DNA of 64,000 nt from Candidatus Poribacteria bacterium (lineage in GTDB: Bacteria; Poribacteria; WGA-4E; WGA-3G). The notes under the pieces were generated by a model. It saw only the letters and a program-made list of their open reading frames with translations. It ran no database searches and was not told the origin of the DNA. The translations under genes and the position numbers were made by a program. The DNA lies in NCBI GenBank assembly GCA_028824125.1, contig JAPPES010000127.1, forward strand, positions 24,070-88,069, read 5' to 3'. Position 1 is the stretch's first letter. Each line of letters starts with the position of its first letter. Positions 9,251-55,892 of the stretch are shown piece after piece.

Positions 9251-10338
9251 TGGAATGATCGTACATCAGTGCCTTTGGGGTGACTTATGAGTTTTCGGAG
9301 CAGTTGTCCCGTCTTCACATCCCACAAATGGGCTTCAAATGGACCAGCACTTACGATCATCCTACCATCCGGACTAAACGCAATCAAGCGTCCGATAGCA
9401 AGTGGAGAAACTCGTCTGTAGGGCTTTATGACTCTTGGTAAGCGTTGTCCCGTGTTCACATCCCATAGATCGATAATACCAGAACCAACGATACATGCGA
9501 TCATCCTGCCATCCGGACTGAATGCAAAGTTGAAGGTAGGAGACGTATATATTGTTCGTAGGGGTTGTCCTGTGTGCGTATCCCACAGACGCACAGTTCT
9601 ATCATTACTTGTACTTGCTATCATTTTGCCATCCGGACTAAATGCTACCCACCATACCCTTTCCGTATGCCCGGTGAGTGTTCGAAGATTTTTGCCCGTG
9701 TGCGCATCCCACAGACGCACAGTTTTATCTTCACCAGCACTTACGATAGTTTTGCCATCCGGACTAAACGCAACACTTGGTATCGTTTTCGTATGTCCTT
9801 TGAATGTTCGGAGGATTTTTCCTGTGTCCACATCCAACAGATAGAAGGTTTTGCCAAAATTCCCATTTACGATAGTTCTACCATCCGGGCTAAACGCTAC
9901 GGCCCCCCCGCCCAATTCTTTCCTGCGTCCTTTAAATGTTCGGAGGTTCCTACCTGTGTGCACATCCCATAAACGAACGGTATTGTCCTTCATGCTCCCT
10001 ACCAACATATTGCCATCCGGGCTAAATGCAATGCTACCGGCTGAATTCGTAAATTCTGTTATTTTGATGAATTGCATAAGTTCTTCACCTGTCTGGACAT
10101 CCAAGAGCCAAATACCGCGGCTTCTCGCCACTGCAAGCCGTGTGCCATCGGGAGAAAACTTTATATATTTGATGCCACCTTGCCCAGGCCCGGACAGCAC
10201 TTCCGCGCCATCAGGGAGATCCCTCTGTTGTGGATCCCCCTGTTGTGGATCATCCTGCGGGGTTTGAGCAAGGCTGCTAAATGTAAATATGAGTGTTATC
10301 AATAGTGCAGGTAAAATTAAAAACAATCTATTTTTCAT
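9241..10338 (-). CDS. Secreted seven-bladed WD40 protein
   Basis: The ORF track starts at 10371, but the ATG at 10338 follows AGGAG with good spacing and begins the signal peptide MKNRLFLILPALLITLIF. After the cleavage site (SLAQ) comes a Q/D-rich stretch (DDPQQGDPQQRDLPDG), then seven WD40 units ending in LLDVQTGE, LWDVHTGR and similar. That makes a single propeller of about 365 residues in all. The DLPDG...GPGQGGIKYIKFSPDGT opening is shared with the large WD40 proteins at 34-40 kb. Likely periplasmic or secreted binding scaffold; partner unknown. Confidence 0.88.
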   Translation of the reverse strand: MKNRLFLILPALLITLIFTFSSLAQTPQDDPQQGDPQQRDLPDGAEVLSGPGQGGIKYIKFSPDGTRLAVARSRGIWLLDVQTGEELMQFIKITEFTNSAGSIAFSPDGNMLVGSMKDNTVRLWDVHTGRNLRTFKGRRKELGGGAVAFSPDGRTIVNGNFGKTFYLLDVDTGKILRTFKGHTKTIPSVAFSPDGKTIVSAGEDKTVRLWDAHTGKNLRTLTGHTERVWWVAFSPDGKMIASTSNDRTVRLWDTHTGQPLRTIYTSPTFNFAFSPDGRMIACIVGSGIIDLWDVNTGQRLPRVIKPYRRVSPLAIGRLIAFSPDGRMIVSAGPFEAHLWDVKTGQLLRKLISHPKGTDVRSFQRN

Positions 10339-10512
10339 GGATGTGTTCTCCTTTTTTGTTGTGCAAAACATCTATTTGGGTAGAAAAACGTGGACTAAAT
10401 ATAAATCATTTTAACGTTGCATTTATTCTACTATGGGTTGGATTAAATGTCAAGTGTCCTGTCTGAATCGCGGATTTATCGGATTTCACAGATTTCGCGG
10501 ATTATCCCTTCA

Positions 10513-10779
10513 TATAGTAGATTTTAGAATTACTTTGACATTGTTATCGGTGCTGTAGCACAAACTATATGAAGATTAAAAAATAAATTGGGTAATTTGG
10601 CGAGGTTAGGAAACCTCGCCAGCAGAGATGTACACCTGCTGCTGGCGAGGTTTCCTAACCTCGCCCCTTACCGAAATATTTATTTAAACTTCATACAGTT
10701 TGTGGGACAACATCCGCGGTAGGTTCGGTTTCCTAACCGAACCGAACATAATGTTCAATTAATTCTAAGGTCTACTATA
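10513..10779. repeat. MITE-like element, TATAGT family, copy 1
   Basis: The left end TATAGTAGATTTTAGAATTA (from 10513) is matched in inverted orientation by the right end (10753-10779). The ~267-base interior is noncoding and carries two palindromes of the GGTTTCCTAACC family. The larger one pairs GGCGAGGTTAGGAAACCTCG-type arms (about 10599-10665); the second is near 10720-10746. The other copies in this window share the ends but not the interior. Confidence 0.6.
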
Positions 10780-10781
10780 AA

Positions 10782-30824: not shown

Positions 30825-31385
30825 CTATTCTTCAGTTTCAATTGATTCAATTTCAATCTGCGCGTTTGTGTAGATGCAGATTTCACTTGTAATTTTTAAT
30901 GCTTCAGCGACAACTTCAGCGGCGGTCAGCTTTGAGTATTTGAGTAGTGCTCGGGAAGCAGAGAGCGCAATAGAACCACCTGAACCGATAGCGAGAATGT
31001 CGTCGTCAGGAATGATGAGATCGCCGTTGCCGGAAATTAGGTAGCTATCGTTTTCATTGATCGCTATCATCAAAGCATCCGTACGTCTAAGAATGCGATC
31101 ACTACGCCAATCTCTTGCGAGTTCCACCGAAGCTTTCTGCAGGTTGCCTCGGTACTGTTCCAATTTTTTCTCTAAATTTTCATAGAGTGTGAGGGCATCT
31201 GAAGCAGAACCGGCGAACCCGATAAGAACGCTATCCTGGTAAATTTTGCGAATTTTACGAGCACTGTGTTTAATAGCAGTATCGCCTAACGTAACCTGAC
31301 CGTCCCCGCCAATAGCGATTTGCCCGTTTCGGCGCACCGCCAATATGGTTGTTGAACGTATCCTTTTCTTTTTAAGTAGGTCCAT
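30825..31385 (-). CDS. hslV: ATP-dependent protease peptidase subunit HslV
   Basis: About 186 residues from the ATG at 31385; the track start at 31457 adds 24 residues that lack homology. It starts MDLLKKKRIRS and then TTILAVRRNGQIAIGGDGQV, so after removal of a short propeptide the new N-terminal residue would be the catalytic threonine. The proteasome-like fold continues with GFAGSASDALTLYENLEKKL and DDILAIGSGGSIALSASRAL. HslU follows on the same strand 68 bases later. The gap holds a small palindrome (GGTGGCACACGCCTCTGTGCC) of the dispersed-repeat type. Confidence 0.93.
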   Translation of the reverse strand: MDLLKKKRIRSTTILAVRRNGQIAIGGDGQVTLGDTAIKHSARKIRKIYQDSVLIGFAGSASDALTLYENLEKKLEQYRGNLQKASVELARDWRSDRILRRTDALMIAINENDSYLISGNGDLIIPDDDILAIGSGGSIALSASRALLKYSKLTAAEVVAEALKITSEICIYTNAQIEIESIETEE

Positions 31386-31565
31386 ATCTTTCCTAATATT
31401 ATAATACCTAATTAACGTGATCCATCTTGTTAAGTGTGCAGTTAGGAAACCGCACACGCAGAATACTACACGCGTATTCAGCGTTGATTCACCGTCGGAA
31501 AAAGATAAATCCCGTATGTCTCATCTGTAATTTGTTAAACGTTAACTATACTTATCTTTTTTTAC

Positions 31566-40205: not shown

Positions 40206-40295
40206 GCTTGAACTCTGTGCGGTTAGGAAACCGCACCTACCAAATAATGGTTCTATAATCTGTAGAAACGATGTTTCGTTCCTACAGATTATCGG
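40206..40295. repeat. Two palindromes between WD40 and dehydrogenase genes
   Basis: The first is GTGCGGTTAGGAAACCGCAC, a perfect hairpin with loop AGGA (complement TCCT) and a member of the dispersed GGTT-TCCT-AACC family. The second pairs ATAATCTGTAG with CTACAGATTAT around a loop with AACG-type arms (about 40255-40292). Both are non-coding and lie just after the stop of the minus-strand dehydrogenase and before the WD40 gene start. Confidence 0.6.
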
Positions 40296-55471: not shown

Positions 55472-55726
55472 TTTTTTGCCCGATATTTTGTAGGTTTGAT
55501 TCTATGAATGTGTGTATATATTTTACCGCAAAAAAGACTGCTGGTCAACTTTTTTAGATTGGAAAGGGCGCAGCGATAAAAGCTTATACCATTTCTAAAT
55601 GATAATGTCCCATTACTAATTGGAAGAACCCCCTAATATCAAATTAACGCGATTCGTCTCGGTAGATGCGGTTTCCTAACTGCACCTTTCTTCAATAAAA
55701 CAAGATAAATTCCGTTAATTTGGTAT

Positions 55727-55892
55727 TATAACCCAAGTTGCTACCTATAAGTTTTAGACATGGAAACACCGTCTTTAATGAAAAACATGCTGATAATTAG
55801 CCAATATTTGTAGCGCAAACTGTCAGTTTGCGCACTTGCAGGCACAATCTAACAGATTGTGCTACATAGTGGCAACTTGAGTTATTATAGTA
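55727..55892. repeat. Repeat element R1, left of sigma/anti-sigma pair
   Basis: A ~160-base noncoding unit with terminal inverted repeats ATAACCCAAGTTGC and GCAACTTGAGTTAT. Inside are two hairpins (GCGCAAACTG/CAGTTTGCGC and GCACAATCT/GATTGTGC). A near-identical copy in the same orientation lies at about 57762-57924 on the other side of the 56397-57692 gene pair. The preceding stretch (55610-55730) also has AATATCAAATTAACG with a complementary ATTTGGTATTA end. Confidence 0.65.

Follow-up and report, generated by a model that had tools for sequence, protein, structure and literature searches.

The window, meaning the whole 64-kb stretch of DNA analysed here, contains six copies of a 24-nt hairpin (hereafter REP) of asymmetric build, in which a 4-nt head (GCTG or GTAG) accompanies an 8-bp stem with a TCCT loop. 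The preliminary description had placed dispersed hairpins with an invariant TCCT loop at these sites; we confirmed the motif at each of them, and it was unchanged at most, the copies at 31436 and 55662 being degenerate, with AACT replacing AACC. Specifically, two GCTG-headed REPs stand head-to-head in a 41-nt register, one at 10600-10623 on the minus strand (stem GCGAGGTT, loop TCCT), which is the commonest 24-mer in our genome sample (41 of 112), and the other at 10641-10664 on the plus strand. Both are held by a 126-bp miniature element with ATGAAG...CTTCAT ends (10569-10694, no strand assigned), and this element sits in the loop of a host hairpin whose left arm, GTAG plus CACAAACT, occupies 10555-10566 (plus strand) and whose right arm, AGTTTGTG, occupies 10697-10704 (plus strand). 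A further GTAG-headed REP at 10719-10742 (plus strand), with the stem GTTCGGTT and a TCCT loop, forms part of another repeat, about 86 bp long (10695-10780). The remaining three stand singly, and no miniature-element end of either type occurs within 130 bp of them: a degenerate REP at 31436-31459 (minus strand), with the head GCGT, which is neither GTAG nor GCTG, and one G-T pair in the stem; a REP at 40217-40240 (minus strand; head GTAG, stem GTGCGGTT), which has an orthologous copy in the sister species G045, the synteny around the site being broken; and a degenerate REP at 55662-55685 (plus strand; head GTAG), with one mismatch and one G-T pair.

Folded as single-stranded DNA, individual hairpins reached z scores of -4 to -6 (10641-10664, -10.6 kcal/mol, z -6.3; 10719-10742, -9.8 kcal/mol, z -4.4; 40217-40240, -9.3 kcal/mol, z -5.6), and the 126-nt element about -15 (-47.3 kcal/mol, z -14.7). 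Two neighbouring features were also recorded. The longest open reading frame of a proteasome-subunit gene (30825-31457, minus strand) starts inside the REP at 31436-31459, so the actual start codon probably lies farther inside the frame. Upstream of the head-to-head pair, positions 9700-10516 are 87% identical to a second place in the same assembly (G000:C137:305-1090), either a paralogue or a strain variant, with the similarity stopping just before the repeats.

Copy number and stem covariation

The REP core GGTTTCCTAACC occurs in 464 exact copies across the 5.59-Mb draft genome (162 contigs), as compared with 0 and 1 for reversed controls. Our other statistics for this genome derive from a 1.18-Mb sample, comprising the window and further sequence of the genome, in which 112 exact cores have their full context, 63 with a GCTG head and 30 with a GTAG head. 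Relaxed criteria returned 135 copies in the sample and a single one in shuffled sequence. The copies are almost all intergenic, with 9 of 133 inside open reading frames though these make up 82% of the sequence, and 15 head-to-head pairs share a spacing of exactly 41 nt. Within the genus, the number of core copies ranges from a background of 2-3 to the 464 reported here.

The claim that the stems covary was borne out. We compared 45 distinct 24-mers for which an exact 12-nt core was the sole criterion, leaving the outer stem free of any selection for pairing. Here, 90.6% of outer-stem cells pair (80.7% when shuffled), the covariation score is 0.285 (shuffled 0.129, sd 0.018, reached by 0 of 500 shuffles), and 42 cells carry double changes, as opposed to 13 after shuffling; the four outer pairs also score above slid controls. 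Stem changes are thus compensated beyond the shuffled expectation, although most of the signal is supplied by a few subfamilies, with seven perfectly complementary outer-arm pairs, so that the independent events are fewer than the copies. The four inner pairs are constant in this set owing to the core-based finding of copies, and compensatory change of the inner stem is seen in a sister-species core, GATA-TCCT-TATC.

Miniature elements and their IS630-family parent

About 70% of REP copies lie in or beside the ends of miniature transposons. An end of the ATGAAG...CTTCAT type falls within 130 bp of 63 of 133 REPs (both ends in 52), a TATAGTRAAATCC-type (TATAGT) end falls within the same distance of 33 others, and 37 of the 133 have neither. 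The ATGAAG elements measure 115/116 or 126/127 bp, and between identical ends they hold one GCTG REP, one GTAG REP or two GCTG REPs. The REPs are set back from these ends by about 30 bp, and single-REP versions have the same ends, a layout that does not match a mobile unit consisting of the REP doublet. The closest relative, G030, whose flanks are 92-98% identical, provided filled and empty site pairs: one site holds a TATAGT element with a lone GCTG REP here and is empty in G030, where a single TA stands, and another holds a two-REP ATGAAG element in G030 and is empty here. From these sites we infer that REPs move as the cargo of miniature transposons. Such natural site pairs bear on how REPs spread, the REPs being cargo in a genome with no detectable RAYT. 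The TATAGT element itself is about 113 bp long, and its TATAGTRAAATCC ends number 127 copies in the genome (control, 0); one full copy lies at L052:2918-3030, and most of this and some ten more full copies hold one REP.

Among the matches listed, intact IS630-family elements of 1234-1240 bp with ATGAAG ends are present in G038, G040 and G046. They encode a transposase of 382-384 aa that matches NF033545 at 178.6 bits (cut-off 100), and the miniature and full-length elements have ATGAAGATTAA...(C/G)GGTAAT ends in common. The full-length elements show no REP core near them; in G046, a GTAG REP lies just within the end of a frame-broken copy of 1186 bp, in a region 97% identical over 36 nt to a miniature element. 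Judged by this shared sequence, the ATGAAG miniature family is demonstrably derived from an IS630-family element, probably by deletion. In its own genome, no IS630-family transposase of this type was found above threshold.

Insertion into hairpin loops

Counting as host any hairpin whose stem has 7 bp or more, we found 17 of 19 ATGAAG elements here, and 11 of 15 in G030, lodged in a hairpin loop; with Watson-Crick pairs only, the count here was 16 of 19. Random sites fell in such loops in 38 of 2000 cases with G-T pairs allowed and in 9 of 5000 without them (about 0.2-2%). The host stems comprise many unrelated sequences, and for 12 host hairpins the genome sample contains twins that lack the insert, the loop being 3 nt long in most cases. 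At the junctions, 30 of 35 hairpin-lodged cases show a 1-bp duplication (p 7e-14), such that a triloop xyz becomes xy-element-yz, the last left base equalling the first right base. Host loops include AAC, GTT, GGA, TGT and others. IS630 transposition as studied uses a TA target and duplicates the TA (PMC2170065); a TA target with a 2-bp duplication was not what these junctions showed, and TA was seen for the TATAGT family alone, at the one empty site examined. Of six full-length IS630 copies, two (G040 and G038) also lie in a hairpin loop with a 1-bp duplication, another is within an AT-rich palindrome, and the remaining three are flanked by half-hairpins on each side instead of a complete hairpin, possibly as a result of recombination between copies.

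The element at 10569-10694 has the junction AT|AC and is among the 5 of 35 without the 1-bp duplication; insert-free hairpins with its host's CACAAACT/AGTTTGTG stem occur elsewhere in the genome, with loops of 2-4 nt. That host belongs to a hairpin family, GTAGC(A/G)CAAACT with a 3-nt loop, of 29-39 copies per 1.18 Mb (for example, 55813-55833 and 10555-10566/10697-10704), which is shaped like a GTAG-headed REP (4+8+3+8) and is a frequent host of ATGAAG elements. In G030, an ATGAAG element (L248:900-1014) interrupts the loop of a REP-like hairpin of the GTTCGGTT type, so that a carrier of REPs is nested within a REP. Our search of open-licence PubMed Central found no paper on IS630 elements in hairpin loops.

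RAYTs in this genome and in sister species

The preliminary description took the hairpins for REP elements used by TnpA-REP transposases and pointed to a search for a REP-associated tyrosine transposase (RAYT). That search found none in the genome's own assembly, a draft that is 94% complete and whose contigs often break at REPs, so that it could lack a RAYT or IS630 gene that lies between REPs. Only three Y1 transposases are present in the genome: L031 and L032 are IS200-type by NCBIfam, and L033 is nearly identical to L032. None of the three has REP hairpins close by, the copies at L031 being 4-6 kb off. A candidate RAYT relic (G000:C115:53226, E 0.066) was rejected, as it reads as a DUF503-like protein and not as a transposase; we take its product to be DUF503-like and the neighbouring gene to be RbfA-like. 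Both copies of one IS200-type TnpA (L032:1388-2060 and L033:1290-1960, in G000:C93 and C153) are flanked by another abundant palindrome, TTTAGTCCCGTAGGGACGATATGTTTATAGA, present at about 60-68 copies per 1.18 Mb, in a layout that resembles a REP array around a non-RAYT transposase; this palindrome was not found around most of the TnpA relatives checked in sister species.

RAYTs do survive in sister Poribacteria. They match NCBIfam NF047646 at 112-118 bits (cut-off 80), score below the cut-off of the IS200 model, and are invariant in the alignment for HxH, WQ and YxNP. An AlphaFold model (pLDDT 88) has as its best PDB match 4er8 (E 2.6e-9, TM 0.74), the structure of TnpA-REP bound to a REP hairpin. 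Headed hairpins occur in the flanks of 18 of 28 poribacterial RAYT loci, often no more than a few hundred bases from the gene and either inverted on two sides or arrayed; inverted copies stand on both sides at L129, L132 and L133. No RAYT locus of the GCTG clade is bounded as a unit by ATGAAG/CTTCAT ends. A RAYT in G034 is flanked by a GTGCGATA-TCCT-TATCGCAC hairpin, and the core predicted from its flanks, GCGATATCCTTATCGC, has 105 copies in G034, 76 in G032 and 7 in G043, with 0 copies in 15 other genomes, the present one included; G034 and G032 hold the GGTTTCC core at background number only. The number of GGTTTCCTAACC copies is linked to RAYT presence (median 84 vs 43, p 0.0016, a statistic that ignores kinship). 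A TTT-loop core from G031 was rejected as an abundant REP, given only 9 copies, most of them at that genome's own RAYT. Together, these comparisons support the identification of the hairpins as REP elements with cognate RAYTs in sister species. The earlier reading thus stood as regards REP identity and the flanking of RAYTs in sisters, and was not supported for this genome, where no RAYT was found in the assembly and miniature transposons carry most copies. A 272-aa RAYT-like protein of a different subclass is encoded in the closed genome G046 (L341:3890-4706); its gene ends repeat a YHNLPDC-coding stretch, likely as terminal repeats, and the 10 kb fetched around it contain no GGTTTCC hairpins.

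The type of hairpin follows the clade of the RAYT. GTAG is the general head across the tree, and GCAG (L256) and then GCTG heads (L249-L254) belong to one nested clade, with branch supports of about 0.7. Perfect discrimination by a RAYT position is confined to 111, which sets apart the GCAG+GCTG clade, and to 109 and 155, which set apart the GCTG clade; in comparison clades, the positions that differ lie elsewhere. The changes matching the head shift are T/S to R at residue 111 and G to E at residue 109. In E. coli TnpA-REP, the parts that contact the guide include residues Q95, E100, H101 and R104 as well as the C-terminal tail (PMC6006769, PMC8266576). Judged by the WQ...R spacing, which is conserved, these four residues map to 107, 112, 113 and 116 in poribacterial RAYTs, and residues 109 and 111 therefore fall among them. 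We hypothesize that residues 109 and 111 may set guide head preference, each change being represented by one lineage. The nested GTAG, GCAG and GCTG series, with its two matching residues, makes a RAYT recognition code directly testable.

Origin and spread of the REPs

In our judgement, these hairpins are very probably REPs whose RAYTs survive in sister species and which, in this genome, are mostly passengers in IS630-derived miniature elements that insert into hairpin loops. RAYTs, as HUH tyrosine transposases, would bind the folded single strand via the head, and they would have founded the repeat population. In the present genome, where no RAYT was found, most REPs ride in miniature inverted-repeat transposons, the main one being a deletion derivative of an IS630-family element that is still intact in sister species. 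This miniature would insert into the loops of existing DNA hairpins, other REP-like palindromes among them, duplicating the middle loop base, and the pair at 10600-10664 belongs to an element of this kind, lodged in a GTAG-CACAAACT hairpin loop. Set against this account are the 1-bp duplication in place of TA, the 37 REPs with no miniature ends and the three full-length IS630 copies outside a complete hairpin.

A reading as classical REPINs, in which the head-to-head pair itself replicates, moved by a RAYT that is in an unassembled gap or was recently lost, with the outer arms being extended spacers, is unlikely. The fixed 41-nt spacing of GCTG pairs, the cognate RAYTs of sister species and the contig ends at REPs are all in its favour, but ATGAAG/CTTCAT, 30 bp beyond the REPs, marks the ends of the inserted units, and those same ends bound elements with two GCTG, one GCTG or one GTAG REP as well as full-length IS630 elements without a nearby REP core. 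We give very little credence to a role at the RNA level, as transcription terminators or otherwise, with selection having spread the hairpins at gene ends. The hairpins are stable and nearly all intergenic, as terminators would be, but a T-run (at least 6 T in the next 10 nt) follows only 1 of 133, convergent gene pairs show no clear excess (19 of 107, vs 14% at random), an Rfam search with the hairpins gave no match, and copy number varies from background to its maximum within one genus; we rejected this reading on the T-runs and the convergent-gene count. As for chance palindromes or an assembly artefact, we found nothing in favour, and the copy controls above, together with the occurrence of the hairpins in independent assemblies, closed chromosomes among them, refute an idea whose probability we consider negligible.

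Beyond the passenger account, we advance a broader proposal that we rate as an even bet: the IS630-family transposase and its miniatures would pick the middle base of a hairpin triloop, probably in an extruded cruciform and whatever the stem, and would thereby spread captured REPs into REPs, while in parallel the RAYT guide would have shifted from GTAG to GCAG to GCTG with residues 111 and 109. Hairpin-loop targeting instead of TA would, if true, be a new target rule for the IS630 family.

Comparison with known systems

We found no paper on Poribacteria REPs in open-licence PubMed Central. The hairpins resemble the REP and RAYT/TnpA-REP systems of E. coli, Pseudomonas and Stenotrophomonas (PMC2817692, PMC3733652, PMC8266576) in their head tetranucleotide and short hairpin, in hundreds of intergenic copies, in RAYT genes flanked by cognate copies, and in RAYT and REP diverging together; those of Stenotrophomonas and Marinomonas are likewise perfect short palindromes. 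They differ in that the host is a member of the Poribacteria, its own assembly has no RAYT, and most copies lie inside other transposons. The main head, GCTG, does not fall within the range published so far (GTAG/GTGG and GYAG/GYRG/GTRG/GTMG), although RAYTs flanked by GCTG hairpins exist. REPINs (PMC3116915) are also inverted REP doublets of about 100 bp that fold into one long hairpin, whereas the mobile unit here is bounded by inverted repeats of the IS630 type, about 30 bp beyond the REPs, and holds one or two REPs of either head.

The miniature elements are similar to IS630-derived MITEs such as Correia and RUP (named in PMC2817692) in being short (about 115-127 bp), non-autonomous and intergenic, with IS630-family ends; they differ in carrying REP hairpins and in sitting in hairpin loops with a 1-bp duplication and not TA. 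The second family, with TATAGTRAAATCC ends, has TA at the one empty site examined, unlike the ATGAAG family. Insertion into palindromic repeats is shared with the REP-targeting insertion sequences IS1397, ISKpn1, IS621 and ISPpu9, which have been reported from the IS3, IS110, IS4, IS256 and IS5 families (PMC1525189); here, by contrast, the elements are of the IS630 family, and the host stems are of many unrelated sequences.
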